A stretch of 39,537 bases of DNA from Clostridia bacterium. Lineage in GTDB: Bacteria > Bacillota > Clostridia > Oscillospirales > Acutalibacteraceae. Below are positions 5,189-21,296 of this stretch, in pieces; position 1 is the first letter of the stretch; every line of letters starts with the position of its first letter. Where the stretch lies: contig JAFYKZ010000006.1 in the NCBI GenBank assembly GCA_017537365.1, positions 1 through 39,537 of the forward strand. The letters are read 5' to 3'. Below the pieces are notes generated by a model, which was given only the letters and a program-made list of their open reading frames with translations, did no database searches and was not told the origin of the DNA. The position numbers and the translations under genes were made by a program.

Positions 5189-5228
5189 AGCAAAAAGACC
5201 TATTTATTAATAAATAGGTCTTTTTGCT
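5189..5228. terminator. Perfect 40-bp palindrome, bidirectional terminator
   Basis: Twenty-base arm AGCAAAAAGACCTATTTATT followed at once by its exact complement, giving A-rich and T-rich edges on both strands. It ends both the plus-strand 4773 gene and the minus-strand recombinase gene. The last recombinase codons (A-K-R-P-I-Y-stop) lie inside it. Confidence 0.88.
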
Positions 5229-6703
5229 GGTGCACCGAGTGCACTGATATCCGAACCTAAAATGCCTGCTTCGTGGAGCTCAGCAAAGGTCATTTCCCGT
5301 GAGCAATCTTTGTAATTACAGCCAAAATAAATTCTTCCGTCATCCCAAAGAACGATTTTATTTATAAAGGTATCAATTAATCTTCTGCGGTGTTCAACCT
5401 TTTTGAAATTCAACTTGCGGAGTCTGTTAAAATAGGCTTCAATATCCTCGGCAGAAATTATCGGTTTTGTCATTTCCTCTTTTATTATTTGGATAGACAG
5501 TTCCGTTTTCTGTCGTTCTAAGTCTTTCATGCGCTGTTTTGTGGACGGAGTCAGAATTCCTTGTTGAATAGCATTAAGAAGATTCTCTATGCTTTTGAGA
5601 GTATCACCGTATTGCTTTTTCAGTAACGGCAATGTGGTGTTTGCTTGGTTTTGCACCTTGGTTGCTGTCTCACAGAGCATAGTCACCAAATCATCATCAA
5701 ATACGATTTTGCGAATGAATGCGATAGTTGCATCTTCAATCCATTCTTTTCTGACGGTTTTCTTATCGCAGCCTTTATGATTTTTAACGCTTACGCATTT
5801 ATAATAGCGGTGCACCTTTTTCTTCATGTGGCTTGTACCGCTTTCGCCAACCATAAGACATTGACACTTTCCGCAGAAAAGTTTAGTGGTAAGCAAATAT
5901 TCGTCTTCGGCTTTATGTTTAGCCGGAGCTTTTTTATTTACAACCATACGCTCTTGAACTCGGTCAAACAAGTCTTGTGGAACAATGGCGGGAATACCGC
6001 CCGGCTGAACAATATCGCGGTATTTGTATTCACCGATATATTTGCGGTTGTGTAACATACGTGTTACGCTGTTTATGCTGATTTTACCGCCACGCTTGGT
6101 ACGAATACCTTTGATATTTAGTTGGTCGGTTACTTCCTGCATACTTGCACCTTCGGCATAGGACTTAAAGGCTTGCAATACTGCAGGTGCAGTCAGCGGG
6201 TCAACTTGAAAGAACTGCTCAGAGTCAATAGTATAACCAATAGGAAGCGTACCACCGTTATATTTACATTTGAGTGCGTTTTCGGTAAGACCTCTAATAA
6301 CCTTCTCTGCAAGGTCGGCGGAGTAATATTCAGCCATGCCTTCGAGTAATGATTCAAGCAAGATACCTTCGGCTGTATTGGAAATAACTTCGGTTGCCGA
6401 TATTACCTTAACTCCGTTTTTACGCAGCATTGCTTTATAGTGTGCCGAGTCATAACGGTTACGAGCAAAGCGGTCAAGTTTCCATACAATGACAGTATCG
6501 AACAGACCGTTTGCACTATCCTTAATCATACGCTGAAAGTCGGGGCGATTATCGGTCTTTGCAGATAATGCACGGTCAATATAAGAACCAACAATTTGAA
6601 TGTCATTTTTCTGTGCAAATTCCTTACATTCACGCAACTGTCCTTCAATAGACTCTTCACGCTGATTTTCACTTGAATATCGCGCATAAATTACACCTGT
6701 CAT
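5207..6703 (-). CDS. Large serine recombinase (site-specific integrase)
   Basis: 498 aa. The catalytic resolvase domain opens with MTGVIYARYSSENQREES, with the nucleophilic Ser near residue 10, and carries VWKLDRFARNRYDSA. A recombinase domain follows (GYTIDSEQFFQVDP...MLHNRKYIGEYKY), then a zinc-ribbon (CGKCQC ... YYKCVSVKNHKGC) and a C-terminal coiled coil. This class integrates and excises elements such as Tn4451/TndX-type units. The start ATG overlaps the stop of the upstream 533-aa gene (ATGA), so it is the last gene of an excisionase-unknown-recombinase operon. It probably moved this element or part of it; att sites could not be fixed by eye. Confidence 0.93.
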   Translation of the reverse strand: MTGVIYARYSSENQREESIEGQLRECKEFAQKNDIQIVGSYIDRALSAKTDNRPDFQRMIKDSANGLFDTVIVWKLDRFARNRYDSAHYKAMLRKNGVKVISATEVISNTAEGILLESLLEGMAEYYSADLAEKVIRGLTENALKCKYNGGTLPIGYTIDSEQFFQVDPLTAPAVLQAFKSYAEGASMQEVTDQLNIKGIRTKRGGKISINSVTRMLHNRKYIGEYKYRDIVQPGGIPAIVPQDLFDRVQERMVVNKKAPAKHKAEDEYLLTTKLFCGKCQCLMVGESGTSHMKKKVHRYYKCVSVKNHKGCDKKTVRKEWIEDATIAFIRKIVFDDDLVTMLCETATKVQNQANTTLPLLKKQYGDTLKSIENLLNAIQQGILTPSTKQRMKDLERQKTELSIQIIKEEMTKPIISAEDIEAYFNRLRKLNFKKVEHRRRLIDTFINKIVLWDDGRIYFGCNYKDCSREMTFAELHEAGILGSDISALGAPAKRPIY

Positions 6704-8303: not shown

Positions 8304-8492
8304 TTAGTTTTCCTCCGCTTGTCCGTTGCTAACCCAAGCATCTATTTCTGCTAATTTAAACTTCCACTTTTTACCGACTTTATATGCAGGCATACCTTTA
8401 TTCGCAATCCATTTTAATGCTGAGTCACGGCTGATGCCAAGATATTTGCATATCTCAGGCATAGAGTAGTATCTATCATCAAAATCATTCAT
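8304..8492 (-). CDS. Excisionase-like MerR/Xis helix-turn-helix protein
   Basis: 62 aa. Classic 'excisionase family' pattern: YYSMPEICKYLGISRDSALK (winged HTH), WIANKGMPAYKVGKKWKF (wing) and FKLAEIDAWV. Such small proteins bind DNA at attachment sites and steer integrases toward excision, or act as local regulators. ATG 8492 is preferred over GTG 8501 because GAGG lies just upstream. It is the first gene of the three-gene recombination operon, under the promoter at 8519-8547. Confidence 0.85.
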   Translation of the reverse strand: MNDFDDRYYSMPEICKYLGISRDSALKWIANKGMPAYKVGKKWKFKLAEIDAWVSNGQAEEN

Positions 8493-8518
8493 TTTAAACA
8501 CCTCGTAAGTTTTTCTTT

Positions 8519-8547
8519 ATTATACCATAAAACTGCGGATTAGTAAA
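8519..8547 (-). promoter_or_regulatory. Sigma-A promoter of the recombination operon
   Basis: On the minus strand TTTACT (8547-8542), 17-bp spacer, TATAAT (8524-8519), about 27 nt before the excisionase start codon. Confidence 0.65.
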
Positions 8548-8574
8548 GTTAATTGTCGGTTATTGTATGAAGTT

Positions 8575-8613
8575 ACTAAAAAGAACCGCAGCCTTTTTAT
8601 AGGCAGCAGTTCT
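8575..8613 (-). terminator. Terminator ending the 15.65-8.6 kb minus-strand cluster
   Basis: Thirteen-bp near-perfect stem AGAACTGCTGCCT / AGGCTGCGGTTCT (minus strand) with a short loop, followed by TTTTT. It insulates the cluster from the recombination operon. Confidence 0.85.
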
Positions 8614-8627
8614 TCTTACACTTGATA

Positions 8628-9326
8628 TTAAATATAAAATTCTTTAAAATCATCTAATCTTAAACATCCGAGTTTTCCTCCAAAAGCGGCTCCACAGTCT
8701 ATATTGATAAAATTGTTTTTACGATAAATTTCAGGTTTACCTGTAATAGCTAGTGTTGGAGTATGACCGCAAATAATAAAAACATTGGGTTCGTCAGTAA
8801 ACACTTGTTTATCATAATCTGCACGTAGAAAAGCTAACTCCTCTATACTATGTTCTGAAAGAGTTTTATCAGGGTTGATGTTTCCAGTATGCGAAAGCAC
8901 AAATGTTTTATCGCCAACATCTACAACATCGTACAATTCAAATTCTTTCAAAAAATCCAATAGCTCAAATCTTTCCTCATACGGCAGATTCTTAAACTGT
9001 GCTAAGGTTATATCTCCATCGTTGCTTTGGTAGTCAATAAGTTTGTTGATAATTGAAGTGTCAATATGAGTTTCGCAATTTTCTTCTTTTATTTCGACCA
9101 ACAAATCTGTCAACACATCAATTGCCATTAGTTCGTGATTCCCTAACAAACAAAACGTATTACTTCTAAAAGATAAATCTTTTAGTATTTTTATTGGTTC
9201 TGGTCCTCTATCCAATATATCACCAAGCAGATAAAGAGTATCGTCGTCAGTGAAATTAATGAGTCCAAGCATAGCCATAAATTTATTATACTCGCCGTGA
9301 ATATCAGACATTACATACGTTGCCAT
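8628..9326 (-). CDS. PPP-family metallophosphatase (Ser/Thr phosphatase-like)
   Basis: 232 aa with the full set of PPP motifs: MSDIHGEYNKF (GDxHG-like, near residue 6), LLGDILDRGPEP (GDxxDRG), LLGNHELM (GNHE), VLSHTG and ICGHTP. These bind a two-metal centre and hydrolyse phosphate esters; relatives include lambda phosphatase and diadenosine tetraphosphatase-like enzymes, so the substrate may be a phosphoprotein or a nucleotide. ATG 9326 overlaps the stop of the upstream gene (TGATG), with AAGGAG before it. It is the last gene of the cluster, before the terminator at 8575-8613. Confidence 0.9.
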   Translation of the reverse strand: MATYVMSDIHGEYNKFMAMLGLINFTDDDTLYLLGDILDRGPEPIKILKDLSFRSNTFCLLGNHELMAIDVLTDLLVEIKEENCETHIDTSIINKLIDYQSNDGDITLAQFKNLPYEERFELLDFLKEFELYDVVDVGDKTFVLSHTGNINPDKTLSEHSIEELAFLRADYDKQVFTDEPNVFIICGHTPTLAITGKPEIYRKNNFINIDCGAAFGGKLGCLRLDDFKEFYI

Positions 9327-9928
9327 CAAAGTCTCCTTTTTGAATTACTTGCCATTTTTAATCCTTGCTCTAACAAATAACTTATTAATTCAATCACATC
9401 AGAAGAAGGATACCAAATTGCAACGTTAGAAATTATAGTTCTTGAGGTGTGTTCGTCCAAAAGTTTGAACACTCCATTAATCCTGTCGATTGCAATCCGA
9501 CTGAGAACAAGAGCTTCTACAAACCAATTTGCATAATCAATTTGTTGAAGATTTTTGCTCTCTAAAAAAGCCTTTAGTTGGTCAATAAATTCAGGCTCCA
9601 CAAAATACATTTCTGTTTTTAGATAACCTTGTTCTATAACAAAATCATCAACAAATTCATTTAACTTGTCTTTTGTTGCTTGAATTTGCGAAAACGGAAT
9701 TTGTAGCAGTTTATGTATTATCAAATCGTCTGGAGTTTCATCTTTTACACAGTTACAATATGTCTGTAGTGTTTTAAAGCAATCATCTGATGGGATAGCG
9801 CACAATTTAATTTCAGGTAATAATCCACGTTCACACATATGATATTTTACTAGAAAAGAAGTTGCAATATTTACAGGAATCTGGTATTCTGCAAATTTTT
9901 CTTTTAATATTTCGATAATTTTGCTCAT
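9326..9928 (-). CDS. Unknown 200-aa protein
   Basis: Mostly helical, soluble; no motif that I recognise. Notable stretches are YHMCERGLLPEIKLCAIPSD and CNCVKDETPDDLIIHKLL, with several Cys in the first third. The C-terminal half reads as packed helices (WFVEALVLSRIAIDRINGVF; IELISYLLEQGLKM). ATG 9928 is preferred over the longer form from 9994 because AAGGTG lies just upstream. It is coupled to the phosphatase gene by overlapping stop and start codons, suggesting the two products act together. Confidence 0.7.
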   Translation of the reverse strand: MSKIIEILKEKFAEYQIPVNIATSFLVKYHMCERGLLPEIKLCAIPSDDCFKTLQTYCNCVKDETPDDLIIHKLLQIPFSQIQATKDKLNEFVDDFVIEQGYLKTEMYFVEPEFIDQLKAFLESKNLQQIDYANWFVEALVLSRIAIDRINGVFKLLDEHTSRTIISNVAIWYPSSDVIELISYLLEQGLKMASNSKRRL

Positions 9929-9971
9929 GTGTTTCACCTTTTTTATATTATACAAAACTTTATAGCAAACT

Positions 9972-10586
9972 TCAAGATGGCTGTTCATTTTCATCCGAAT
10001 GGTTTAAGATATCCAAAAACTTTGGATGAAGGCGAATTTCAACATTGTCGCTTTTTTCAGGAAAAACATCATCAAAATCCAAAGCGGACTCCGAAGTTTG
10101 ACATTTGTGGATGAATCTCTGAATTCGGCCGACAGAACTTTTAAAACTTTCAACACCAACTTTCAATAATTCGGCCATGCTTTTTGTATCAAGGTTTTTA
10201 GGTATGTTTATCACGAATTGAACCGTTACTTTCCCCTTTAAGTCGAGCGCATCTTCTAGAGAACCGCCTTCTAAATAGCAACACCAAACGCCCATTTTAC
10301 GATTTTCAGTTGAAAGACTTAAATTCAGATCGTTCATTAACATCTCGAACCATAAATAATTTTTTGCGGTCTTCTTGTCTATGTTTAAAACGTTATCCGG
10401 ATGCCCAACCAACGATAGCGTGTTTTCATCGCTATCGTCAATTAGCATCTCTATCGGTAACGTAAAGTATCGACTACCAGTATAGCCGATTGTGACGAAC
10501 GTATAATCAGGGCTTTCATCATAGTCATAAATTACGGGTTCTGATTCATTTAATAGGATTTCTAAGGCCTCTTTTATATTGCTCAT
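9972..10586 (-). CDS. Unknown 204-aa protein
   Basis: Soluble mixed alpha/beta protein. An acidic N-terminal helix (EALEILLNESEPVIYDYDES) leads into strands, a middle part with KTAKNYLWFEMLMNDLNLSL, then strands again (KVTVQFVINIPKNL) and a helix with basic residues (GVESFKSSVGRIQRFIHKC). This alternation loosely recalls YbjN or type III chaperone-like folds, but I cannot assign it. AAAAGGAG precedes the ATG, which overlaps the stop of the preceding gene (ATGA). Member of the close-packed cluster. Confidence 0.65.
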   Translation of the reverse strand: MSNIKEALEILLNESEPVIYDYDESPDYTFVTIGYTGSRYFTLPIEMLIDDSDENTLSLVGHPDNVLNIDKKTAKNYLWFEMLMNDLNLSLSTENRKMGVWCCYLEGGSLEDALDLKGKVTVQFVINIPKNLDTKSMAELLKVGVESFKSSVGRIQRFIHKCQTSESALDFDDVFPEKSDNVEIRLHPKFLDILNHSDENEQPS

Positions 10587-11245
10587 TTTGTCGTTTCTCC
10601 TTTTAGTGAGTCTTTTGCCATTTGAGTAAGCCCACCATCCACTGGATTGGTTTGAGATAGTTTACGAATAGGATTCTTGGATTCATCCTCAAAGATGATA
10701 TCTCCGATTACGAGTCCTATCATAAAAGCTTCGGTACTAACTCGTTCTAACGTTTCTTCGTTATTGATAGTCTCTATAGAGAATTCTCTCAAGATATGCC
10801 CAATGAATCTGTCGGTAGATAGGTAAAAGAATGCTTTTTGCTCTGGCACAAAACCAAAATTAATTTCGAGTTCTTTTGCGTTTTTATACTGATTTTCGAA
10901 AAAAACCATATTGCCTTGAAATTCGCTATTTTCAAGCCAATCATTAAACACCTCAACAGCGATCTCGTATACACGATTTTGTTCTTTTATGGATTCTATC
11001 TGACTATAGTACACGTCAATATATTCCTTTGTCATATCGGAAGCTATATCTAGCACCACTTTTGCGAGTGCTTCAGCTTGCTTAACTGTTTCACAATCCT
11101 CTTCTTTATGTACAAACTCGGCTACGATATTTGTTATAGCAGCGGCTATAGAAAGAGTACGTTCTTCAAAATCTGATTTCTCGGTTGTTGTATATTCAAT
11201 CATTGCGCGACATTCTTTTTTAGTGTTTATTACTTTTATTTCCAT
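10583..11245 (-). CDS. Unknown 220-aa helical protein
   Basis: Almost entirely predicted helical and acidic, with long amphipathic runs (ALAKVVLDIASDMTKEYIDV; KEQNRVYEIAVEVFNDWLEN). No membrane segment or signal peptide and no family I recognise. ATG 11245 is preferred to the longer ORF start at 11305, since GGAG lies seven bases before it. The stop overlaps the start of the 9972-10586 gene. It lies 19 nt after the three-TM membrane protein gene and is probably cotranscribed. Confidence 0.65.
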   Translation of the reverse strand: MEIKVINTKKECRAMIEYTTTEKSDFEERTLSIAAAITNIVAEFVHKEEDCETVKQAEALAKVVLDIASDMTKEYIDVYYSQIESIKEQNRVYEIAVEVFNDWLENSEFQGNMVFFENQYKNAKELEINFGFVPEQKAFFYLSTDRFIGHILREFSIETINNEETLERVSTEAFMIGLVIGDIIFEDESKNPIRKLSQTNPVDGGLTQMAKDSLKGETTK

Positions 11246-11264
11246 AAAATACTCCAGTTTAATG

Positions 11265-12068
11265 TTATTTATGTTTTGACAACTTTTCAAAATTTTTGAT
11301 AACAAGTATTATATCTTCTGCCATTGTATCTAAATCAGAATCATTTTCATTACCAAATTCTTTTGTATACTGTGCGGTTCTTGAATTACCATTACAAATC
11401 CACCCTTTAGGTAAATCAAACGTTATGGCCTCTTCTATAATTGTTTCTAATCTGAATTCCTCAAAAGCAAAGTCTACGGTAAATGTTCTGTTATTCGCTT
11501 GTATTATTAATTTTTCATTATCAACCGAGCAAGTAAAACAAGAGTTTTTGTTAATAAAGTTTGTTATTGCTGTTAAACCTTTTGTACCCATTTCCACAAT
11601 TTCAGGTCTGTAGGTTTCATAGTCGTTCAAGAACCAATAATCTAAAGAATCTATGCTTGACAACCTTACGTCTGCTGGGCTAATTAAAGTGCGCGGATAC
11701 TGAATATACGCATAAACAATTTTTTTGCTGATTTTATTGTAAAGAAAGTATATTTCACCTATTGGGAATAGCAACATTAAAATATATAGACTGACTTTAT
11801 TCCAGCCTGATGCTTTCGGGAATACAACCTGCAATAGCAAATTTTGATTTCTAAATAAAGAATATGTACATATAAAAAGTATTATAGTAAAAGAAAAAGC
11901 TACTGCTGCAATTATGTTGGGGTTGGCATCTTCCAAGGGACATTTTAGAAAATAGTATATATATGGCAAAGCAACCATACCGATCAATAGAATTCTTTCA
12001 ACCAGAGAGAAAATTGCCGTATACTTTGTTGCTATTGTTGTGCGCGGGGATATGGTAGTCAATTTCAT
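11265..12068 (-). CDS. Membrane protein with three N-terminal helices and LPxGW domain
   Basis: 267 aa. Hydrophobic helices at residues ~20-41 (LVERILLIGMVALPYIYYFL), ~53-70 (IIAAVAFSFTIILFICTY) and ~92-110 (VSLYILMLLFPIGEIYFLYN) place the rest on one side of the membrane. The soluble C-terminal part ends with LPKGWICNGNSRTAQYTKEF and a final helix. A similar arrangement (LPNGWVLETNGTEYALVYKK, then a helix) ends the adjacent 117-aa protein, so the two may share a domain by duplication. AAGGAGG precedes the ATG, which overlaps the stop of that upstream gene. Confidence 0.72.
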   Translation of the reverse strand: MKLTTISPRTTIATKYTAIFSLVERILLIGMVALPYIYYFLKCPLEDANPNIIAAVAFSFTIILFICTYSLFRNQNLLLQVVFPKASGWNKVSLYILMLLFPIGEIYFLYNKISKKIVYAYIQYPRTLISPADVRLSSIDSLDYWFLNDYETYRPEIVEMGTKGLTAITNFINKNSCFTCSVDNEKLIIQANNRTFTVDFAFEEFRLETIIEEAITFDLPKGWICNGNSRTAQYTKEFGNENDSDLDTMAEDIILVIKNFEKLSKHK

Positions 12069-12418
12069 TGTTTTTTGCCTCCTTTTTTTATTGTATCTAT
12101 AGCTTCAACTATGTCCGTTTGAAATTTCGCTACGATAGGTCGCTTGTCATATTTTTTCTTATAAACCAACGCATACTCTGTGCCGTTTGTTTCAAGAACC
12201 CACCCATTAGGTAGCAAATGCCTCCTGAGCTTTTTATATTCACGCTTTTCTAATAATCGAAACATATATAATTCTTTGCCATCGTTGTCCATCAAAACCA
12301 TATAGTCGCCTTCGTTGCTGGCGACCATAAGGCCGCCCTCAACTGAAGCAGAGAAATATTTGCCATTTTTTATTGCATTAACAACCGATTTCTTGTATGC
12401 ATCTCGTTTTGAAATCAT
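12065..12418 (-). CDS. Unknown 117-aa protein with LPxGW domain
   Basis: Soluble, basic. A helical start (RDAYKKSVVNAIKNGKYF) is followed by strands (GGLMVASNEGDYMVLMDNDG) and the segment HLLPNGWVLETNGTEYALVY with a C-terminal helix (FQTDIVEAIDTIKKG). The last ~45 residues match in pattern the C-terminus of the adjacent membrane protein (267 aa). A strong AGGAGG precedes ATG 12418. Its stop overlaps the start of that membrane protein gene (ATGA), which implies balanced expression. Confidence 0.68.
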   Translation of the reverse strand: MISKRDAYKKSVVNAIKNGKYFSASVEGGLMVASNEGDYMVLMDNDGKELYMFRLLEKREYKKLRRHLLPNGWVLETNGTEYALVYKKKYDKRPIVAKFQTDIVEAIDTIKKGGKKQ

Positions 12419-12438
12419 ATAGCTTTAATCCCTCCTAA

Positions 12439-13353
12439 TTATGCACTAAATAAAGATGCAAAAAAGTTTGGCTTAATACTAAAAATACAATTTTTAGGAT
12501 CAGCGTATATCAGCGTATCAGCAGAATAAGCTATTTTTATGGGAAAACAAATATATTGCGCCTCTACAAATCGCATAAGCTTCTTCATATGCTCGGTATT
12601 TTCGGCTATTAACAGCAAAGATGTATTGTGCTTACAAAAGCTTATATTGTGCTCTTTTGCCATTGATACCGTCGCTATTCTCTCAAGCTTGTCGAGTAGC
12701 TCTTTTTTCCAGCCGGAATTTTGCTTTACCGACTCGATAAAAATTGTTTCTGCACCATTTATATTTACAAGTCCTTGAGGACGGAAAATTTTTGTTGCTT
12801 TGGCATCTTGCTTCTTTGACGGAACAAATACAGGCTCACACATAGAAAATTCATTGATATCAAAACCGCTTCTTATAAGAAACTGCGATGCCGATAAAAT
12901 CTTCTTAACCTGAGTAGCATCGATTGTTTTCAGATAATTGCCAAGCCTTACCTTCTTGCCATACGACTTAAGTAACCCTGCTCCTCGCCAGCCCAGGATA
13001 TACACTTTGTTTGATGACCTTGTGCCAGCCTTATTGTTTTCTTCAAACCTATACGCATCTATAAACTCACAAGCGCTTAATATTTTAAGCCTCTTTTGAA
13101 CGTCTTTTTGCGTTATCTCATCAATACCGCAGTTATGTAGAACCGTTTCCAAAATAAAGGAGGTAGTACACTTTAGCTGACTAACAGCAAAAATCAAGAG
13201 CTTGTCTATTTCATTGTTAGTTGAAGTAATTGCGGTATCAGACGTAGTGTGTATTTTAACAAGCTGTTCTTGATCATAAACCGCAAAGGGTGATTTTGCT
13301 TCATTGTAAAGGGTTGGACAATCGTTAATCGTAGATAAAACATTAGTTTTCAT
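12439..13353 (-). CDS. Winged-helix protein resembling the replication-relaxation family
   Basis: 304 aa. After a ~45-residue polar start, residues ~48-125 look like a winged helix (IDKLLIFAVSQLKCTTSFIL; DVQKRLKILSACEFIDAYRF; NKVYILGWRGAGLLKSYGK). The second half alternates strands and helices and contains FRPQGLVNINGAETIFIESV, which resembles the RPD...FLEvD core of plasmid replication-relaxation proteins, themselves related to PD-(D/E)xK nuclease folds. The usual catalytic set is not obvious. AGGAGG lies before ATG 13353. A DNA-binding role is likely; nuclease activity is unproven. Confidence 0.55.
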   Translation of the reverse strand: MKTNVLSTINDCPTLYNEAKSPFAVYDQEQLVKIHTTSDTAITSTNNEIDKLLIFAVSQLKCTTSFILETVLHNCGIDEITQKDVQKRLKILSACEFIDAYRFEENNKAGTRSSNKVYILGWRGAGLLKSYGKKVRLGNYLKTIDATQVKKILSASQFLIRSGFDINEFSMCEPVFVPSKKQDAKATKIFRPQGLVNINGAETIFIESVKQNSGWKKELLDKLERIATVSMAKEHNISFCKHNTSLLLIAENTEHMKKLMRFVEAQYICFPIKIAYSADTLIYADPKNCIFSIKPNFFASLFSA

Positions 13354-13374
13354 ATTATAAATTCCTCCTGATAA

Positions 13375-13926
13375 TTAAAGGCCAAAGCGCTTTAATACAT
13401 GTGATAAGTTGCTGTATTTGGGTTTGTTAGCAACATTCCTTGATAAATCGAAATTTTCTAAAACTCCGAACTCATTTATCCTATTCACATTGTTGGCCGG
13501 TGCCCACGTGGAGTTCATGCTATTTGTTTTTAATATGTCTTGTGCAAGCTGATAGTCTTGAGTGATAATTAATAATTTCTCACCTTGACTTCTAGCGTTA
13601 ATCACTCTGCCAACAATAAAAGCGTCCGCTTTTTCCGTTGAGCGAGGATTTCCCTCAAACCTTATAAAACCGGCGCGATGTAACGCATTAATATTTTCAA
13701 CAGTGCGTTTCGCAGCGAAACCTCTCGGTGTGTTTTCTGTGCAGAATTTATGTATTTCGTGCATAACGGTTTGTGGAATGGTGATTTTTATACCGCTATC
13801 TCTAAGACTAGGGATAAATGACTCCATAAAGTTTTCGAACTGTCTTTTTAGCAAAGATGAAGTATCTATAATAATGTTCGTATAGTTTTTATTGTTATAA
13901 AATAAAGTGTTTTTATTGTTTCTCAT
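13375..13926 (-). CDS. PIN-domain ribonuclease
   Basis: 183 aa. Acidic residues fit a PIN active site: D21 in TNIIIDTSSLL, E57 in VMHEIHKF, D101 in EKADAFIVGRV and D124 in LLIITQDYQLA. PIN domains use such a cluster to bind metal and cut RNA; many are toxins (VapC type) but some process RNA or mediate interference. No typical VapB-like antitoxin lies next to it, although the upstream and downstream genes are uncharacterised. AAAGGAAG precedes the ATG. It is the clearest effector-type enzyme in the minus-strand cluster. Confidence 0.82.
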   Translation of the reverse strand: MRNNKNTLFYNNKNYTNIIIDTSSLLKRQFENFMESFIPSLRDSGIKITIPQTVMHEIHKFCTENTPRGFAAKRTVENINALHRAGFIRFEGNPRSTEKADAFIVGRVINARSQGEKLLIITQDYQLAQDILKTNSMNSTWAPANNVNRINEFGVLENFDLSRNVANKPKYSNLSHVLKRFGL

Positions 13927-13947
13927 AAAGCATTAGCTTCCTTTCAT

Positions 13948-14364
13948 TTAATTTTTTCTGCTACGAGAAGTTTCTGTTCCAAAAATATCGTGGTGCGTTA
14001 TTGTTCCGTCACTATGTTTCTCTGAATATCCCTTATACACGCCGAAATCTGAGTAATGTTCAATTCGGTTTCCATTTTCTGTGCTATACCCATTATAATC
14101 GCCGTACCAGGTCTTATGTTGAATCCTATCGCCATTCTTTTCTGAATATCCAGTCGGCACACCCCAAAAATCAGTGTGTTCAATTCTGTTGTTATTCACG
14201 TGCGATCTTCCTCCTTCCACAACCCAATAATCCTCATGTTGATACGAAGCATGGCTGTCTGAAGACGACGAGGAATAAGTCGAGTCGTCATAATCCGAAC
14301 AATCACCGGTAAGCAAACCATAAATCACACAAAGTGCTATAAAACCTAAAATTATATATAACAT
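13948..14364 (-). CDS. Membrane-anchored protein with five 20-residue tandem repeats
   Basis: 138 aa. A single N-terminal hydrophobic helix (YIILGFIALCVIYGLL) is followed by an Asp/Ser-rich spacer. From residue ~41 the chain is an exact 20-residue periodic repeat, for example IEHTDFWGVPTGYSEKNGDR, IQHKTWYGDYNGYSTENGNR and IEHYSDFGVYKGYSEKHSDG, with weaker first and last units. Conserved points are H3, G8, G12-Y13-S14, N17 and R20. Such short beta-hairpin repeats resemble WG- or MORN-like repeat proteins, which bind ligands or cell-envelope parts; exact family unknown. AAGGAG lies before the ATG. Confidence 0.8.
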   Translation of the reverse strand: MLYIILGFIALCVIYGLLTGDCSDYDDSTYSSSSSDSHASYQHEDYWVVEGGRSHVNNNRIEHTDFWGVPTGYSEKNGDRIQHKTWYGDYNGYSTENGNRIEHYSDFGVYKGYSEKHSDGTITHHDIFGTETSRSRKN

Positions 14365-14469
14365 TTAAATTTCTCCTTCTTACTAATTAGTACAAGTTAT
14401 TAATGTATTGCCATAAATCGTGGCAATCAGTATCCATAGAAACGCATTTTAATCATATGTTTTTGCTCC

Positions 14470-14652
14470 TTAATTCTCTCTAAAATTCGAACAACAACCG
14501 CCAGCATTACCAAGCCATTTCTCGTGGTAATGGCAATAGTAATCGGGTGAACCGGTAGCGGAACTGTAATCGCCGTCTTTGCCTAAGTGTTTATCCCAAC
14601 TGGGACTATATTCACAGTAGATGCACTCGCCGCAACATTTTCCCCATGCCAT
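14470..14652 (-). CDS. Cys-rich 60-aa protein, likely zinc-binding
   Basis: Eight or nine Cys plus His in 60 residues, arranged as two clusters: GKCCGECIYCEY near the start and YYCHYHEKW ... GGCCSNF near the end. The pattern C-x2-C-x2-C plus C-x-x-H suggests a small metal-binding fold. No signal peptide, so it is probably cytosolic. A very strong AAAGGAGG site precedes the ATG. Gaps of ~65 and ~105 nt flank it, but all neighbours run in the same direction. Confidence 0.75.
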   Translation of the reverse strand: MAWGKCCGECIYCEYSPSWDKHLGKDGDYSSATGSPDYYCHYHEKWLGNAGGCCSNFREN

Positions 14653-14717
14653 ACTCTTTCCTCCTTTATAAAGTTTTTGAATTTTTATATGTATCCGCCA
14701 TATTTCGTGTTAAAATG

Positions 14718-15251
14718 TTATTTCACTCGTATATTTGAAACACTGCAGTTAGATGCCTTTGAAATGTACCAAAAACCGTTTGTGTAAATATCACGCCCAT
14801 TAAAACCTCTGTACGTAGTACTTCCGCCAAGGTTATGGATATTTACATATGCCATATCTAAACACGAACATTTATTGGTTTTATTTACATAGTAACTCAC
14901 CTTTATTGTATAAGTCTTATTTTTTTGTAACTTAAGTGTAGAGGCTATGTTTTTGCCTGTGCCAGAAATTAAGAAAAAGTTCTTGCCGTTAATCGCAGGA
15001 GAAACTGATATTGCCATAAGTGGTGCCTTGTTACAGCGATGCCCCAAGGTTTTCGGTGCTGCATCACTCACAAATTTTATTGACGGAGTTCCTTTAGTAT
15101 TAGTTTTTACGGTAAAAGTGACTGTTTTATCGCAGTCAAATTTTTGTTTAGCTGTAGCTGCCGAGGCACTTATGGAGAGAATGCTGGTCATTGTTAGCAT
15201 TATGGTTGCGATGCAGAGAAACGATATGCCACGTTTAAAAATTAATTTCAT
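14718..15251 (-). CDS. Secreted protein of unknown function
   Basis: 177 aa with a Sec signal peptide (MKLIFKRGISFLCIATIMLT, likely cut after ASAA near residue 32). The mature part is Lys/Thr-rich and mainly beta (KTVTFTVKTNTKGTPSIKF; KTYTIKVSYYVNK), with several Cys (CDK, HRCNK, KCSCLD, NCS) that could form disulphides outside the cell. No enzyme motif is visible. ATG 15251 is chosen because AAAAGGAG sits nine bases before it; the longer ORF to 15308 lacks such a site. Two mini-ORFs lie directly upstream and overlap its start. Confidence 0.72.
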   Translation of the reverse strand: MKLIFKRGISFLCIATIMLTMTSILSISASAATAKQKFDCDKTVTFTVKTNTKGTPSIKFVSDAAPKTLGHRCNKAPLMAISVSPAINGKNFFLISGTGKNIASTLKLQKNKTYTIKVSYYVNKTNKCSCLDMAYVNIHNLGGSTTYRGFNGRDIYTNGFWYISKASNCSVSNIRVK

Positions 15252-15345
15252 AATAAATTGGCTCCTTTTAATAGTTTTATTGTTTTTATTTGTGGTTGCG
15301 ATTCGCATATATTCATGGTGGTCGTGGTAAAATAACGTTTTCCAT
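15248..15345 (-). other. Two overlapping leader mini-ORFs
   Basis: After a strong AAGGAGG (15362-15356), ATG 15345 encodes MENVILPRPP and stops at 15313. Its ATGA stop overlaps ATG 15316 of a second mini-ORF of 22 codons, ending at 15248 in another ATGA overlap with the secreted-protein start at 15251. This chain could couple translation of the secreted protein to ribosomes entering from 15345. Function is inferred from layout only. Confidence 0.35.
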
Positions 15346-15359
15346 TCGATTTTACCTCC

Positions 15360-15650
15360 TTATGCTGCATAAGCGACATTTTTATTTTTGGCAGTATTAT
15401 CTGAGTAGGAAATGACAGAATCAACAGAGACTCTTGGATATCTGCCGTCATCGAAAAGCTTATTTATACTAACTAATAACATATCTCCTTTGTTGAAACT
15501 TCCAAAAGCAAATGCGGGTGCTGTAGTTCCACCCTCTAATTGTAAAGAAAGAATGCATCCAGTTAATGTTTCCTTTTCCACATAAGCAAAGAAAGAATCA
15601 AATCTTTCTATTGCTCTTGTAGAACTTGACTTTTCATGATATAATATCAT
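15360..15650 (-). CDS. Unknown 96-aa protein, first gene of the cluster
   Basis: Small soluble protein beginning MILYHEKSSSTRAIERFDSF, then alternating strands and Gly-rich turns (LSLQLEGGTTAPAFAFGSF) and a Ser/Asp-rich tail. No recognised family. ATG 15650 is chosen over 15665 because GGAGG lies eight bases upstream. It is the first gene transcribed leftward from the divergent region that holds the palindrome at 15674-15701, and is therefore the most direct target for any regulator binding there. Confidence 0.62.
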   Translation of the reverse strand: MILYHEKSSSTRAIERFDSFFAYVEKETLTGCILSLQLEGGTTAPAFAFGSFNKGDMLLVSINKLFDDGRYPRVSVDSVISYSDNTAKNKNVAYAA

Positions 15651-15673
15651 TAAAGACACCTCCAAATATTATC

Positions 15674-15701
15674 AGACATCGAACCGTCTGTTCGATTGTC
15701 T
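15674..15701. promoter_or_regulatory. Operator-like palindrome in divergent intergenic region
   Basis: AGACATCGAAC (15674-15684) / GTTCGATTGTCT (15690-15701), an 11-bp inverted repeat with one bulge around CGTCT. It lies 24 nt upstream of the leftward gene start and 83 nt upstream of the STAND gene. A binding site for the winged helix of the STAND protein is a natural guess. It is not a canonical LexA box (spacing five, not four). Confidence 0.55.
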
Positions 15702-15783
15702 AATTATGTTATACCAATGTTTTTTCGTCTTTTTTTCGTTAAAAGTTCTTTTTTTATTCGAATTTTAAAGAGGTATTAGTTTT

Positions 15784-18771
15784 ATGCAAAAAATTAGAAA
15801 AATTTATATTGACGAGCATTCTTTTATTGATATGGTTAATCAACAGATTTGTATAAAAGATAATTTGGATGATTTTAAAGGAATTAATTTTGAATTATTC
15901 AAATATTTTGTTATTAACAAAAATATACTTATAAAATACTCTCAATTACAAGAATGCTGGGACAATTCCGAAAACAATCAAGACCACGAGTGTGAAATTC
16001 TTCGTTCCTCGATATCTAAACAGGTGAATACATTAAGTAAATTAGTTTCTGATTTTTGTCAATTCAATAATGTCAGAGGTACTGGATATCGAATGACTTT
16101 TCTTGAAAACACAAAATTCGAATATGAGAGCAATCAAGAAGATATAAAAAAATCCAATACTGATAATTCCTTCAGTATTGGTTCGCAATCTTTAATTAAT
16201 GGTATAAAAAAGTTCTTTAAAGAACAATCGGATAATTACATAAATACCTCAACCTATTCACAAGAAATAGTTCCGTATGTAAAAGATATTAACGATTGGT
16301 TAGGCGGTATTTATGAAAAAAATCTCATCGAGACTGTAGTTTTGTTATGGGAACAAGAGATTCGCGATGGTTTGTTCATAGGTAAATCAGGTGGTGGAAA
16401 AAGTGCGGCTTTTTTCGCTTGTGTCAATTATTTGCTCAAGAACCATCCTTCCACTACACCTATATACATTAATTTAGAAGAGTGTTTCTATGGAAGCGGA
16501 GAGGACAGAATTTTGGGGTATATTCAATCTCATTATGCCACCGATACTTCTATCGCAGATTTAAAAAATATTATACTTAACAGTAACGAAACTGCTGAAA
16601 ACAAACCCAAATTCGTTTTGTTACTTGACGGATTGTCAAATTGTATAAACTCAACCGAAACTGCCAACGATATTGCAATATTGCAAAAAGAATTCTCACT
16701 ATATAACAAACCGCACATCCAACTAATTTTTTCTGCTGTAAATGAGCAGTTCCCGTTCACACTTGGCAAAATTTCAAAACAGGCTTTTGAAATTCAGGGA
16801 TTGTCGGAATCACAAGTTATAAACTATTTGGATTCTATGAGTATAAATCATGGCTGCAACACTCCTTATCATATTTTGTCAAATCCTTTTATGCTTTCCA
16901 TTTATGCTAAAACGGCAGATTTTATAGCTTCTCAAAATAGTCAATTCAAAAACAAATTCAGGGAGAATATCACTACAGAGGCAGATATTTTATATAACTT
17001 TTTTGAGGCTATCGCTGTAAAATTTGCAGAAAAAGTTGCGCCTTATAATCAAAATAAATTATTTTTCGCTTTTGATTTCATATTACCCATAATCGCATAT
17101 TATATGGCAATAAACGTTCGACAACACATTTCTAAAGCAGAAATAGATGATTGTGTACGAGATGCAATAAATTTATTAGGAAATAGAGAGTTTGTCACTC
17201 GTTTCGAAGATCATTATGGAGAAGAGTATTGCTTTAAAATCAATGAACTTATAGTATGGTTTGTCCAACAAACAGGAATACTAAATATTAGCGAAAAGGG
17301 TTACACATTTAACAACAGTATTTTTCGTAATTATTTGTGTGCAAAACATATATACAATATAATTTTAATGCAAAACGAAAGCATCGAATTAAGTGATATT
17401 TGTAAACAAACTCTAGAATCGGGTTCATTAGCTTATGAATCCAGAAGATATTTAGGAGAACTTTGTGAAGAATTTAAAAACAAACCTTATCAAGAACAAA
17501 ACGGCAGTTGGGTATTCCCAAATAAAAACCGGTTGCTTCTTAATATAATAGATCTTTATAGAGAAAGCGCATCTGACAATGCTAAGATAGCAATATCAAA
17601 TATAGTTTCAGCAATAGCAATCTGCAGAGAAAAGGATTTGTCTGGACTTAATTTATCTTTTTTAGACTTACGACGTTTGACCTTTTCTAATATTATTTGT
17701 TCAAGACCATCTAAAAATGGTTATGTTGCTGCAAATTTTTCAGGCTGTGATATAGATCAATGGTTTTTTAAAACAGTACAATTTTGTAAAGATCGTTCTT
17801 CTGTCAAAATTTTAAAAAACAGCAATAAGATAGTATCTACAACAGGTGTGGGTAGTTTTAGAATTTACAATTATGATGGTGAGCACATAGAAGTATCAAT
17901 TAATGAGAATGATTTTATTCAGTCGCTTGATGTTTCTCCAGATGAAACTAAGATTTTAGTTTCATGTCTTGATTCTGGAATTTACGAATATGATATTTCA
18001 GAAAATAAGCTAGTTAAAATTATCGATAGCTATGGCGTAATGTTTGGAATAGCAAAATATCTAACACAACATGAATTCGCTTATTTTACAAGAGATAAAA
18101 AAATTACAATATACGATATTTCAAATGACTCTAAAATAACCGTTATCGACTACTCTTCTAATAATTTCTGCTATGATATTGAAAGAAACTCAATAATGAT
18201 AGCAAGTCGTTCAAGAGATATTGTAAGATACAATTTAAACCGATATTCTTTTGATCGTAGGTTTTCAATTACGGATGTTTCTGATTCGTACATTATGCAA
18301 GTAGCTGTCGATAGTATAAAAAATACTGTTATATATTGCACCAAAGATGGTATAGTTGCTGAATGGGATATTATTAGAAACCAACTTGTTTCATCCTGTT
18401 CTCTCGTTGGTGAAATAAATGATTTCGTTTTATCTGATGATAATACAACAATTTACTGTATTACCGAAAATAACGGAATATATATAATTAATAGGCTAAC
18501 ACAAGAAATCACTAATAAGAAAATTAGTGAAAAAGGAAGATGGAGTTCGATTGATATTAATAATGATATTTTAGTAATAGGTTCCATTGAGGGCGGTTTA
18601 ATATTACATAATCTAAACAATATAGAATATAAAATACTATCTACCATGAATCCTTTATATCGTGCAAACGAATTACATATAAAAGGTTGTTCTTTTAAAA
18701 ATGCGAAATTCTCAAATAATGTCACGGAACAATTTTGGATGATGTTAGAAAATGAAGGTGCTGTTCTATAG
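15784..18771 (+). CDS. STAND NTPase with OmpR-type winged helix and WD40-like propeller
   Basis: 995 aa. Residues ~30-106 match an OmpR/PhoB-type winged helix (FELFKYFVINKNILIKYSQL ... NNVRGTGYRMTF). A P-loop NTPase follows: Walker A GLFIGKSGGGKSAAF near 196-210 and Walker B KFVLLLDGLSN near 276-286, then the helical STAND/NACHT-like arm. Residues ~615-665 carry pentapeptide-like repeats (KDLSGLNLSFLDLRRLTFSN), then a WD40-like propeller (LDVSPDETKILVSC; IVAEWDIIRNQLVSSC), and a last pentapeptide-like piece KGCSFKNAKFSN. STAND proteins are sensor switches that oligomerise on ligand binding. Here the usual effector is replaced by a DNA-binding domain, as in SARP/AfsR-type regulators, so it may switch transcription of the divergent cluster. 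Confidence 0.83.
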   Translation: MQKIRKIYIDEHSFIDMVNQQICIKDNLDDFKGINFELFKYFVINKNILIKYSQLQECWDNSENNQDHECEILRSSISKQVNTLSKLVSDFCQFNNVRGTGYRMTFLENTKFEYESNQEDIKKSNTDNSFSIGSQSLINGIKKFFKEQSDNYINTSTYSQEIVPYVKDINDWLGGIYEKNLIETVVLLWEQEIRDGLFIGKSGGGKSAAFFACVNYLLKNHPSTTPIYINLEECFYGSGEDRILGYIQSHYATDTSIADLKNIILNSNETAENKPKFVLLLDGLSNCINSTETANDIAILQKEFSLYNKPHIQLIFSAVNEQFPFTLGKISKQAFEIQGLSESQVINYLDSMSINHGCNTPYHILSNPFMLSIYAKTADFIASQNSQFKNKFRENITTEADILYNFFEAIAVKFAEKVAPYNQNKLFFAFDFILPIIAYYMAINVRQHISKAEIDDCVRDAINLLGNREFVTRFEDHYGEEYCFKINELIVWFVQQTGILNISEKGYTFNNSIFRNYLCAKHIYNIILMQNESIELSDICKQTLESGSLAYESRRYLGELCEEFKNKPYQEQNGSWVFPNKNRLLLNIIDLYRESASDNAKIAISNIVSAIAICREKDLSGLNLSFLDLRRLTFSNIICSRPSKNGYVAANFSGCDIDQWFFKTVQFCKDRSSVKILKNSNKIVSTTGVGSFRIYNYDGEHIEVSINENDFIQSLDVSPDETKILVSCLDSGIYEYDISENKLVKIIDSYGVMFGIAKYLTQHEFAYFTRDKKITIYDISNDSKITVIDYSSNNFCYDIERNSIMIASRSRDIVRYNLNRYSFDRRFSITDVSDSYIMQVAVDSIKNTVIYCTKDGIVAEWDIIRNQLVSSCSLVGEINDFVLSDDNTTIYCITENNGIYIINRLTQEITNKKISEKGRWSSIDINNDILVIGSIEGGLILHNLNNIEYKILSTMNPLYRANELHIKGCSFKNAKFSNNVTEQFWMMLENEGAVL

Positions 18772-18794
18772 TTTCCAAAAAAGGAGACTAGATT

Positions 18795-18932
18795 ATGATT
18801 AACAATAATTTGCTAACCACCCTTGAGAAAAAATTAAACTATTAAAAAGAACCTTTTCATGAATTTGCTTCAAAATTTGGAGAAATTTTGGCACTTTTTG
18901 AGATTAAACATTGTTTGGAATCAAAAAAATAA
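18795..18932 (+). pseudogene. Small ORF interrupted by one in-frame stop
   Basis: AAAGGAG precedes ATG 18795, which encodes MINNNLLTTLEKKLNY and then TAA (18843-18845). The same frame continues with a protein-like stretch KEPFHEFASKFGEILALFEI to TAA at 18930. Either a 45-codon gene broken by one point mutation, a 16-aa peptide, or stop read-through. It follows the STAND gene by 23 nt and precedes its terminator, so it belongs to that transcript. Confidence 0.4.
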
Positions 18933-18933
18933 A

Positions 18934-18979
18934 AAATTGCTAACCGCGTTTATTGTTAATTCGGTTAGCAATTTCTTTT
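18934..18979 (+). terminator. Terminator of the STAND transcript
   Basis: Thirteen-bp perfect stem AAATTGCTAACCG (18934-18946) / CGGTTAGCAATTT (18962-18974) followed by a T-rich tail. Confidence 0.85.
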
Positions 18980-19040
18980 GTCTGGACTTTTGGGAAGTTG
19001 TGTAGTATATGTTTGTGTTGCAAAAGGAGGTGCAAAGCAC

Positions 19041-19325
19041 ATGACAACACTTGAAGATTTATACTACGGCAACATCAGTCCGCACGAAAGGTATATCAAG
19101 CGAGGAACGAGAGTGGATAAGCTCGTAAAGTTGATATGCAAAAACGAGGAAAAATTAAACTCTTCCCTTACAGAGAAACAGAAAGAAACCTTTGAAAAGT
19201 TCAAGGACTGCACAAGTGAACTGTCCTGCATCACCGAACGCGAGGCGTTCAGTTCGGGATTTATCTTAGCCACTCGCATAATGGTGGAAGTAATGCAAGG
19301 CTTGGAGGAGGTTGAGGATATATGA
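19041..19325 (+). CDS. DUF6809-like protein of mobile elements
   Basis: 94 aa. The text matches a small family common in Tn1549-like and related clostridial elements: TTLEDLYYGNISPHERYIKR at the start, EEKLNSSLTEKQKETFEKF in the middle, and ITEREAFSSGFILATRIMVE at the end. Predicted all-helical; function unknown. AAAAGGAGG lies before ATG 19041. Its stop overlaps the start of the next gene (ATGA). Codon use here is less AT-rich than in the 8.6-18.8 kb cluster, which agrees with a separate origin. Confidence 0.82.
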   Translation: MTTLEDLYYGNISPHERYIKRGTRVDKLVKLICKNEEKLNSSLTEKQKETFEKFKDCTSELSCITEREAFSSGFILATRIMVEVMQGLEEVEDI

Positions 19326-20176
19326 AGAAAATAATTATCCTTCTTCTCTGGTGTGGGGTGCTCGCAAGTATGGTAGGATGCGGTGGCAACACCGCACCGC
19401 CGCCTACCGAGAGTCCAACAACAACCGTATCGGAAACGATAATAACAGAAACACCTATCGAAACAACACCGCCTGTAAAGGCGGTAGATCCAACAGAGGA
19501 AGAAAAAGAACCTACCACGACCGAGAGTAAGGAACAGGCAACCGCGCCAACTGTGACCACCACAGAGCATACGGTAACGACAAAGCCGAAGGAAGAACCC
19601 AAGTCTACAGCAACCACAAAACCGACAGAGTCATCGGCGGCGGAAAATACCGAACCCAAAGAAGAAACACCGTCTAAAACCGAAGCACCACAAGAAGAAA
19701 TATATGTAGGCATACAATGGCCGGAGGTTGATCCTACGGATATCGAAAGACTCGTAATTGAGAAAGTAAATGCTTACCGCATAGCACAGGGTGATACAGC
19801 AGCTACGTTGCTCCCCGGACTAACTGAGGTGGCACGCTACAGAGCCAATGAGCTTACGACTAACTTCTCCCACACAAGTCCCTGTGATGCGTGCAACGAA
19901 TTAAAATACGGCGAATTTGTGGATATGACACTCTATGGTCTCACCGCCGAGGATAGTTATTACCAAGGCTTCAACCGAGAAGCAATTGGCATGGGCGATT
20001 GGTTCGGCACGGCGGAAAGTATGTCCGACCGTATCGCCGATGGCTTCCATCATAGCAAAGGCCACTGGTCGTATGTGGGCAGCTCCAAGTATCCATATAT
20101 AGCTGTAGGCGTAACCAAAGCAAACGGAAAATGGTACGTCTGCGTATGTATGAGTGAGAAAAATTACGGCGGATAA
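19322..20176 (+). CDS. CAP/SCP-domain lipoprotein
   Basis: 284 aa. A lipoprotein signal peptide (MKKIIILLLWCGVLASMVGC, lipid on Cys20) is followed by a Thr/Pro/Glu-rich linker to residue ~130, typical of a cell-wall spacer. The C-terminal CAP domain reads RLVIEKVNAYRIAQGDTAAT, then ARYRANELTTNFSHTSPCD, and ends with YIAVGVTKANGKWYVCVCMS. CAP proteins are extracellular and of varied, mostly unclear role in bacteria. It is coupled to the DUF6809-like gene and is probably cargo of the mobilisable element, acting at the cell surface. Confidence 0.87.
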   Translation: MKKIIILLLWCGVLASMVGCGGNTAPPPTESPTTTVSETIITETPIETTPPVKAVDPTEEEKEPTTTESKEQATAPTVTTTEHTVTTKPKEEPKSTATTKPTESSAAENTEPKEETPSKTEAPQEEIYVGIQWPEVDPTDIERLVIEKVNAYRIAQGDTAATLLPGLTEVARYRANELTTNFSHTSPCDACNELKYGEFVDMTLYGLTAEDSYYQGFNREAIGMGDWFGTAESMSDRIADGFHHSKGHWSYVGSSKYPYIAVGVTKANGKWYVCVCMSEKNYGG

Positions 20177-20293
20177 AATTGATATCAAAGCAAAGCATCG
20201 CTTAGGCGGCACCGTTTTGTTAGTAGATTAACTCACAAAAGTATGTTACAATAAACTTATCAACTAATAACAATAGCTTGAAAGGATAAAAAC

Positions 20294-20917
20294 ATGGAAT
20301 TGCGTGATAAATATAAAGAACTAAAGGATAAAAACTTTAAAACCTATAATGATTTAAAAAAATATTTTCTTTTAGAAGTGGATTTTTCGAAAGAAGATGC
20401 TCCTAATAAAATCAAAACACAAATCAATTCAGTAAATGACAATTTAAGTAGAGTTTGGCTTTTGTTTGCCAGTAACGATAAATCCAATTGGGATTGCTTG
20501 CAAGTTGCGCACAGTAAAAATCGTGTTCGAGATGAGATTAAGTCTGCGATAGAATATTTATTATCTGAGTATGATAAGGACTCTAATGAAGTTGCATATA
20601 CAAACAGTGCTTTCTATAAAAATGTATGTCCAGATGCGAAAGGAGAAGAATACCGTAAATGTCTTTATGGTAAAATAGGTTATGAATATAAGTATTTTCG
20701 TTTATGCTTTCTTAATGTAAATAAATATCTTGGGATAGATAAAAACCAAGATTTCAATACCGATATAGAAAGAATCGCATTTATTTGCAAAAATCAGTAT
20801 GCGGAAGCAAAAATAGCATATCAAACACTTGCGGTATATTGGAGATTATATTCAAGTGGTATTGATGGACAAACAATTACATATATTGTAGAAAATCCAA
20901 CAGAATTTGAAGAATAA
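20294..20917 (+). CDS. Unknown 207-aa helical protein
   Basis: Soluble, Lys/Glu/Asn-rich and largely helical (LRDKYKELKDKNFKTYNDLK; SRVWLLFASNDKSNWDCLQ; RDEIKSAIEYLLSEYDKD). There are a few Cys (NVCPDAKGEEYRKCLYG) but no clear metal site. No family recognised. GAAAGGA lies eight bases before the ATG, and a terminator follows, so it is a single-gene unit. Its AT-rich codon use resembles the 8.6-18.8 kb cluster rather than the flanking mobilisation genes, which suggests a separate insertion. Confidence 0.65.
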   Translation: MELRDKYKELKDKNFKTYNDLKKYFLLEVDFSKEDAPNKIKTQINSVNDNLSRVWLLFASNDKSNWDCLQVAHSKNRVRDEIKSAIEYLLSEYDKDSNEVAYTNSAFYKNVCPDAKGEEYRKCLYGKIGYEYKYFRLCFLNVNKYLGIDKNQDFNTDIERIAFICKNQYAEAKIAYQTLAVYWRLYSSGIDGQTITYIVENPTEFEE

Positions 20918-20932
20918 CTTACCCAGTAACAA

Positions 20933-20975
20933 AACCCCTAGGGATATTTAAATATATCTGTAGGGGTTAATTTTG
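20933..20975 (+). terminator. Terminator after the 20294 gene
   Basis: AACCCCTA (20933-20940) / TAGGGGTT (20961-20968) with an AT-rich inner helix, then AATTTTGT. The intergenic stretch from here to 21143 shows nothing else I can name. Confidence 0.8.
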
Positions 20976-21143
20976 TGCATTATTATAGTTTTCAAAAAAC
21001 AAAAGTGAAATTTTATTCTTAAGAGCAATTAATTTTCGCAATAATTTATGACACTCAAAAGAATATTTAGTGCTAAAAACGATTAAAAAATACCAGAAAA
21101 AATTATTGTAAAACTGCCCTAAATTTTATAAAAATTTAAGGCC

Positions 21144-21172: not shown

Positions 21173-21185
21173 AAGCATCCAAACT

Positions 21186-21256: not shown

Positions 21257-21296
21257 TCTGTCGGTATGTTCTTTGACAAAAGCATAAACGCAAAAT

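Follow-up and report, generated by a model that had tools for sequence, protein, structure and literature searches.

A cluster of twelve minus-strand genes (named g12 to g1 in the direction of transcription) that faces a divergent STAND gene is operon-like cargo in a putative mobilizable element, and in the samples that we searched the twelve genes are not conserved as one system. Among these samples, the only sub-module that recurs, in one other genome, consists of two adjacent genes, one encoding a PIN RNase and the other a wHTH-type protein. Our leading explanation, which is tentative and somewhat less likely than not, is that a STAND-type switch controls the cluster, which would be a mobile conflict or stress module that acts by cleaving RNA. 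The DNA analyzed (39.5 kb, hereafter “the window”) is contig 5 of 31 of a genome of 1.72 Mb, and its host is probably a gut bacterium. The features discussed below are listed in Table 1.

Table 1. Features of the cargo block and of the element backbone in the window
Feature	Positions	Strand	Basis
Backbone: large serine recombinase	5207..6703	-	Pfam, alignment
Backbone: HTH_17 protein	8304..8501	-	Pfam, alignment
Intrinsic terminator of the operon	8577..8618	-	Fold and sequence
Cargo block that the G747 sister element lacks; approximate borders, the left one touching the terminator	8578..21110	.	DNA alignment
g1, PPP-type metallophosphatase, ApaH/PrpE/NinI-like; likely start 9326	8628..9329	-	Pfam, motifs
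g2, orphan; likely start 9928	9326..9994	-	
g3, orphan	9972..10586	-	Low-confidence alpha/beta model
g4, orphan; likely start 11245	10583..11305	-	
g5, membrane protein, about three hydrophobic segments	11265..12068	-	
g6, small protein, LPxGW stretch, weak likeness to g5	12065..12418	-	
g7, wHTH-type, 304 aa, remote Replic_Relax kin, KSPFAVY motif, directly after the PIN gene	12439..13353	-	
g8, stand-alone PIN RNase (PF13638), C-terminal VLKRFG	13375..13926	-	Pfam, alignment
g9, single hydrophobic segment at the N-terminus followed by degenerate GYSEKNGDRIQH-like repeats (by eye)	13948..14364	-	
g10, 60 aa, 7 Cys, no family	14470..14652	-	Sequence, Pfam
g11, probably secreted (hydrophobic N-terminus); likely start 15251	14718..15308	-	Sequence
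g12, ~96 aa from ATG 15650, no family	15360..15665	-	ORF, start analysis, Pfam
Imperfect palindrome AGACAtCGAAC-N5-GTTCGatTGTCT, in the g12/STAND intergenic region	15674..15701	.	
STAND/NACHT-type protein, 995 aa	15784..18771	+	Pfam, motifs
Rest of block: DUF6809 protein, CAP-like lipoprotein (below Pfam cut-off), orphan 207-aa protein	18978..20917	+	
Backbone: MobC and MobA-type relaxase	21583..23222	+	Pfam, alignment

Cargo of a putative mobilizable element

An earlier note on this DNA, made from the sequence alone, had placed the cluster in mobile DNA. This setting is supported by the presence of a serine recombinase (PF00239, PF07508, and PF13408 above the Pfam cut-offs), MobC, and a relaxase (PF03432, PF05713, and PF21983 above cut-off for the relaxase and its accessory protein), and by the alignment to a sister element that bounds the block. 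The sister element (locus L068 of genome G747) aligns at the DNA level to window positions 5228 to 6712, 8310 to 8567, 21131 to 23433, and 24674 to 24855, which correspond to the recombinase, the HTH_17 gene, the mob region, and a tRNA-Leu gene with its 3′ flank. Because the distance from the HTH_17 gene to the mob region is ~40 bp in L068 versus 12.5 kb in the window, the intervening DNA constitutes one block relative to G747, which has its own, different genes between the recombinase and HTH_17. The putative integrative mobilizable element (IME) carries about sixteen cargo genes as one block, of which the twelve genes and the STAND gene make up the larger part.

The right side of the element adjoins tRNA-Leu in both genomes, with the anticodon CAG in the window and TAG in L068. 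Pieces of tRNA-Leu are repeated beside the tRNA gene in the window (24805 to 25264, with pieces at 24984 to 25026, 25001 to 25061, and 25204 to 25264), as if elements have repeatedly used this tRNA. An empty site sought by way of spo0A, which is matched in 19 of 21 genomes of the genus, was not found; the flanks in G812, G820, and G806 share only spo0A with the ORFs of the window. The excerpts available of two reports on IMEs (PMC5704250; IME_Rho_tet, PMC12904643) describe the same combination of serine recombinase, MobC, relaxase, and variable cargo. As far as the excerpt on IME_Rho_tet goes (PMC12904643), the cargo of the window bears no relation to the tetracycline-resistance genes of that element, many copies of which lie in small MAFF2-type ORFs, whereas in the window and in G747 the right flank lies by tRNA-Leu.

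Relatives of the relaxase were found in 41 of 150 genomes of the family, our own included, and six of their neighborhoods were opened (G747, G796, G145, G772, G765, and G693). The window order of recombinase, other genes, and relaxase is seen in G747, G796 (where the recombinase is in pieces), G145, and G765; G772 and G693 carry recombinase-like pieces in a different arrangement. At an E value of 1e-4 or 1e-3, neither the STAND protein of the window nor any of the twelve proteins was matched in these six neighborhoods. The matches obtained were to backbone genes, to the DUF6809 gene of the block (in G693), and to the window gene at 27136 to 28689, whose counterpart lies in a G747 stretch away from the element. 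A scan of ten proteins that covered four of the six neighborhoods identified an ABC transporter and a GHKL kinase (G747, L068), AAC(3)-like, APH-like, and ResIII proteins (G796, L070), a dockerin/Big_2 surface protein (G145, L071), and a C5 DNA methylase (G693, L076).

Layout of the gene cluster

The ORF listing of the window contains the twelve minus-strand ORFs (8628 to 15665), and the STAND gene is indeed divergent from this row, although the right end set for the region (18932) was slightly too far given that this gene ends at 18771. A Shine-Dalgarno-like match of at least 4 nt precedes the start codon of all twelve ORFs (only 4 nt for g4 and g2), and in five of them the likely start differs from that of the longest ORF. 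When these likely starts are used, the hand-calculated gaps from g12 to g1 are 108, 65, 105, 21, 21, 20, -4, 19, -4, 43, and -1 nt. Gaps of at most 43 nt or overlaps, together with a single terminator, suggest that the nine genes from g9 to g1 (14364 to 8628) form one operon-like unit. The genes g12, g11, and g10 are spaced more loosely and may have their own promoters. The twelve ORFs and the terminator of the earlier note, as well as its divergent STAND gene, are confirmed.

The terminator has a long stem followed by T residues, and a 70-nt piece that includes it folds with a predicted energy of -25.1 kcal/mol; it is absent from the output of a simple consensus scan. A promoter scan was uninformative because the 73 sites found are close to the 70.0 expected. 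Two tiny reading frames (~10 and ~22 codons, by eye) lie at 15250 to 15350 before the gene for the probably secreted protein g11, the first with an upstream GGAGG, and these are possible leader peptides.

Proteins encoded by the operon

Several of the protein classes named in the earlier note are indeed present. The PPP phosphatase is g1, which scores 54.3 bits against PF00149 (Pfam cut-off 21.5) and carries the sequences DIHG, GDILDRG, GNHE, SHTG, and GHTP, which we take to be the metal-binding motifs of PPP enzymes. The PHROG that matches it best is a NinI-like phosphatase, and among proteins of solved structure its best matches are of the ApaH type. The Cys-rich protein is g10, and the membrane and secreted proteins are probably represented by g5 (three hydrophobic segments), g9 (one), and g11 (a hydrophobic N-terminus). 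No Pfam model reaches its cut-off for g2 to g6, g9, or g10 to g12. A structure prediction for g3 (mean pLDDT of 55) was too poor for use. Outside the block, a small protein encoded at 4773 to 5150 weakly resembles g6 (E 0.006 to 0.009 in an all-against-all comparison of 19 proteins).

The hydrophobic segments of g5, g9, and g11 and the CAP-like lipoprotein within the same block would suit a surface or stress-signaling operon without a conflict role, in which the membrane, secreted, and Cys-rich proteins and the phosphatase are switched by the STAND protein. We regard this explanation as very unlikely, given that the sole recurring members of the cluster are the PIN RNase and the wHTH-type protein and that no surface family was recognized by Pfam among the twelve proteins.

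Conservation of the cluster

Cross-genome searches were made with the STAND protein, g3, g4, g5, g7, and g8. Residues 1 to 639 of the STAND protein (E 1e-10) were matched in 1 of 245 genomes of the order, g5 (P0005) in 1 of 160 genomes of the family, and g4 (P0004) in 1 of 207 genomes of the order, in each case our own. The protein g3 (P0003) was matched in 2 of 197 genomes of the order, our own and G127; the latter match was rejected as chance (27% over residues 89 to 167, E 9e-4, antisense inside a 1,194-aa ORF). These results do not support a conserved twelve-gene set: the lack of co-conservation that the earlier note had named as a refutation was seen in these samples for each of these four members, and only the PIN and wHTH genes are found side by side in a further genome (G087). 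That the set is not conserved in the samples also counts against a conflict module.

Viral contigs gave no relative when probed with short exact peptide patterns, which reach mainly close kin. Among plasmids, g7, g5, g3, and g4 had no match, the STAND protein (P0013) had one distant NACHT record at 20.8% identity, and g8 (P0008) had one match, a Fusobacterium vincentii locus that is described below; among phages, neither g7 nor g8 was matched. As the earlier note had anticipated, no named defense system fits: PADLOC 2.0.0 returned two Cas2-type matches, to g6 (P0006; E 0.0089) and to the STAND protein (P0013; E 0.0026), both judged to be chance, and no match for g10 to g12. We count this, too, against a conflict module.

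An explanation nearly as likely as a conflict module is that the cargo is a patchwork, in which several unrelated modules, each with only one or a few genes, share an insertion slot and a direction without a joint function. The modules would be the PIN-wHTH pair, a phosphatase group, the secreted and Cys-rich genes, and the STAND gene. Three observations favor this view: the four other members searched are not co-conserved, cargo turns over among the related elements (L068, L070, L071, and L076), and gaps of 65 to 108 nt surround g12, g11, and g10. What argues against it is the run of nine genes with gaps of at most 43 nt or overlaps and one terminator, which suggests a single g9 to g1 unit. 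A patchwork would be a caution against inferring conservation of a system solely from how closely its genes are spaced. The comparison with the sister element defines a specific cargo slot where further modules of this kind can be looked for.

The PIN-wHTH gene pair

The cluster does encode a PIN RNase, as claimed previously, since g8 scores 24.5 bits against PF13638 (Pfam cut-off 21.9) and has the acids D21, E57, D101, and D124. The label “wHTH/nuclease-like” fares less well for g7 itself, which scores 13.3 bits against Replic_Relax (PF13814), below the cut-off of 25.3; judging by its sequence, its fold is probably of the wHTH type, with a remote kinship to Replic_Relax. Relatives of g7 (P0007) were found in 2 of 295 genomes of the order, our own and G087, whereas the PIN profile matched 3 of 290 (our own, G087, and G213) and, in the family of G087, 1 of 22 genomes, G087 itself. 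The wHTH gene lies directly 3′ of a PIN gene in both our own genome and G087. In the latter, a group of genes on a single strand (L004, 7306 to 13945) comprises, 5′ to 3′ on the minus strand, PIN, PIN, wHTH, MORN-repeat, Sel1-repeat, and second wHTH genes (MORN and Sel1 by Pfam). Identities between the window and G087 are 27 to 28% for the wHTH proteins and 32 to 35% for the PIN proteins. A three-row wHTH profile run against genome contigs matched one locus, SVTV01000020.1, which is the G087 contig and was deposited as Oscillospiraceae bacterium, of the same order as the window; g7 alone had no match in genome contigs. Two points here count against a conflict module: the pair in G087 has no adjoining STAND gene, and the pair is known from two genomes only. 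Among the matches listed in a search of open-license literature, there was no paper on a pair of Replic_Relax and PIN domains.

In an alignment of six PIN domains, D21 and E57 are kept in all six and D124 in five. The D101 column is in register in all three stand-alone PIN proteins, has its D one place earlier in the two kinase-fused proteins, and lacks it in an HTH-PIN protein. The absence of the third acid from this last protein, of F. vincentii, and of the fourth from one G087 PIN protein also weighs against a conflict module. The sequence VLKRFG occurs at or near the C-terminus of all three stand-alone PIN proteins and of none of the three PIN proteins from TerY-P-like loci.

Across the class, the three-wHTH profile matched 16 of 391 genomes, our own included. 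Apart from the window, the matches (L023 to L036) represent a chromosomal wHTH family with an SPFA motif and a remote likeness to Replic_Relax; each of 15 genomes, from three families of the class, has a single match. The two members tested against Replic_Relax scored 27.2 (L030) and 24.6 bits (L024). Fourteen of the 15 other genomes were opened (all except G495), and 13 neighborhoods were readable (G455 was masked; G475 is on an 11.6-kb contig). In these 13, the g7 relatives sit among apparent housekeeping genes (read by eye) and none has a PIN gene beside it, which makes g7 look like a mobile offshoot of the chromosomal family. The PIN profile matched 0 of these 15 genomes in a run that had no positive control, although the same profile found G087 elsewhere; g7-type proteins therefore need no PIN protein, which we also count against a conflict module. 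The PIN pairing is seen only in the two known mobile or island settings.

The side-by-side PIN and wHTH genes could instead resemble a toxin-antitoxin system and ensure that the host retains the element, with the remaining genes regulating transfer. DNA-binding antitoxins accompany many PIN toxins, and in VapBC-like type II toxin-antitoxin systems, as in the window, a PIN nuclease adjoins a predicted DNA-binding partner, as far as is stated in the portion of the source available (PMC2701414). Unlike the small antitoxins of that portion (PMC2701414), the partner in the window is a 304-aa wHTH protein with remote Replic_Relax kinship. It matches no antitoxin family, and no small antitoxin of a known family was found next to the PIN gene. 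Given also that the g7 relatives in the 13 readable neighborhoods have no adjoining PIN gene, and that the pair is absent from the six related neighborhoods opened, an addiction or maintenance module seems unlikely.

Kinship with PIN domains of phospho-signaling loci

Outside G087, the nearest relatives of the PIN protein are the heads of kinase-like proteins in G213 and F. vincentii, whose genes adjoin vWA-like and PP2C-like genes; the labels kinase, vWA, and PP2C are our reading of the sequences. PADLOC reports PD-T4-6 matches for both of these fused proteins. In F. vincentii, an HTH-PIN protein (HTH_3 at 19.7 bits, cut-off 23) is also encoded next to the kinase-, vWA-, and PP2C-like genes. 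This locus (L046, 8970 to 14028), with HTH-PIN, PIN-kinase-like, vWA-like, and PP2C-like genes, lies in a 2.1-Mb record labeled as a plasmid. The excerpt available on TerY-P triads describes them as consisting of vWA, kinase, and PP2C proteins (PMC11090510). The window PIN protein is related to the PIN heads of the kinase-like proteins in the two TerY-P-like loci, but the window cluster has no kinase or vWA protein and its phosphatase is of the PPP type rather than PP2C. Pfam recognizes no kinase, vWA, or PP2C domain in the twelve proteins or the STAND protein, a further point against a conflict module.

The STAND protein and the intergenic palindrome

The STAND protein has a wHTH-like head (residues ~1 to 106), a Walker A motif at 200, a Walker-B-like LLLDG stretch at 277 to 283, beta-propeller matches (~665 to 973), and two short pentapeptide-like stretches. 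The Walker motifs and the propeller agree with the earlier view of a STAND ATPase. The DNA-binding head attributed to it is less secure, because the head scores only 14.2 bits against Trans_reg_C (cut-off 26.2; profile positions 10 to 77 of 77), which counts against a conflict module; RecU scores slightly higher (15.3 bits) and is likewise below its cut-off. AfsR-like proteins are STAND/NACHT regulators with OmpR-type heads, and Avs proteins are STAND defense proteins. The window protein shares with both an NTPase core and a C-terminal repeat domain. It differs from STAND defense proteins in that its head is wHTH-like and not a nuclease, and its PADLOC match is at chance level.

The palindrome between g12 and the STAND gene may be an operator or a 5′ hairpin; in transcribed form, it would fold into a hairpin immediately 5′ of the ribosome site of g12. 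The exact core TCGAAC-N5-GTTCGA occurs at one site in the window (15679 to 15695). When up to three mismatches are allowed, the pattern has 11 sites versus 11.46 expected, and this lack of excess is another point against a conflict module. Boxes for LexA in Gram-positive bacteria have a center of 4 nt. A LexA-type box was set aside because the center here is 5 nt.

A tentative model

The case for a conflict module is built on the cargo status of the block, the g9 to g1 spacing with its terminator, the single exact palindrome core, and the Walker motifs and propeller of the STAND protein. A conflict or defense role is plausible because the PIN protein keeps most of its acids, is akin to the PIN domains of TerY-P-like loci, and is found with its partner in the other gene group of G087. 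In such a module, the STAND protein would sense a trigger through its beta-propeller and oligomerize with NTP, and its wHTH-like head would act at the palindrome between both units and so switch transcription of the divergent operon. RNA cleavage by the PIN protein might then stop growth or block an invader, with the g7 wHTH protein as a partner that holds or targets the PIN protein. Adjusting or reporting the state of the system could fall to the membrane and secreted proteins together with the PPP phosphatase. The stable core would be the PIN-wHTH pair alone.

A stronger form of this proposal, which we consider rather unlikely, is a new mobile immune arrangement: an NLR-like STAND transcription switch and a PIN effector that is held or aimed by a Replic_Relax-type wHTH protein and tuned by the PPP phosphatase. 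Should the PIN-wHTH pair work as a module, PIN RNases would gain a further kind of partner, a wHTH protein akin to Replic_Relax, and the pair would be tied to the PIN domains of phospho-signaling conflict loci.

Other genes of the window

The motif R-x4-H is characteristic of HEPN proteins and was noticed by eye both in a 533-aa element protein (6700 to 8301) and in the Sel1-repeat protein of G087. The former has the sequence RTDFRH and could be HEPN-like, and no profile matched it. A shared HEPN theme was dropped, given no HEPN profile match and a mutual BLASTP E value of 9.9. Near the left end of the contig, the window also encodes an FRG-domain protein (PF08867) at 1270 to 2019.
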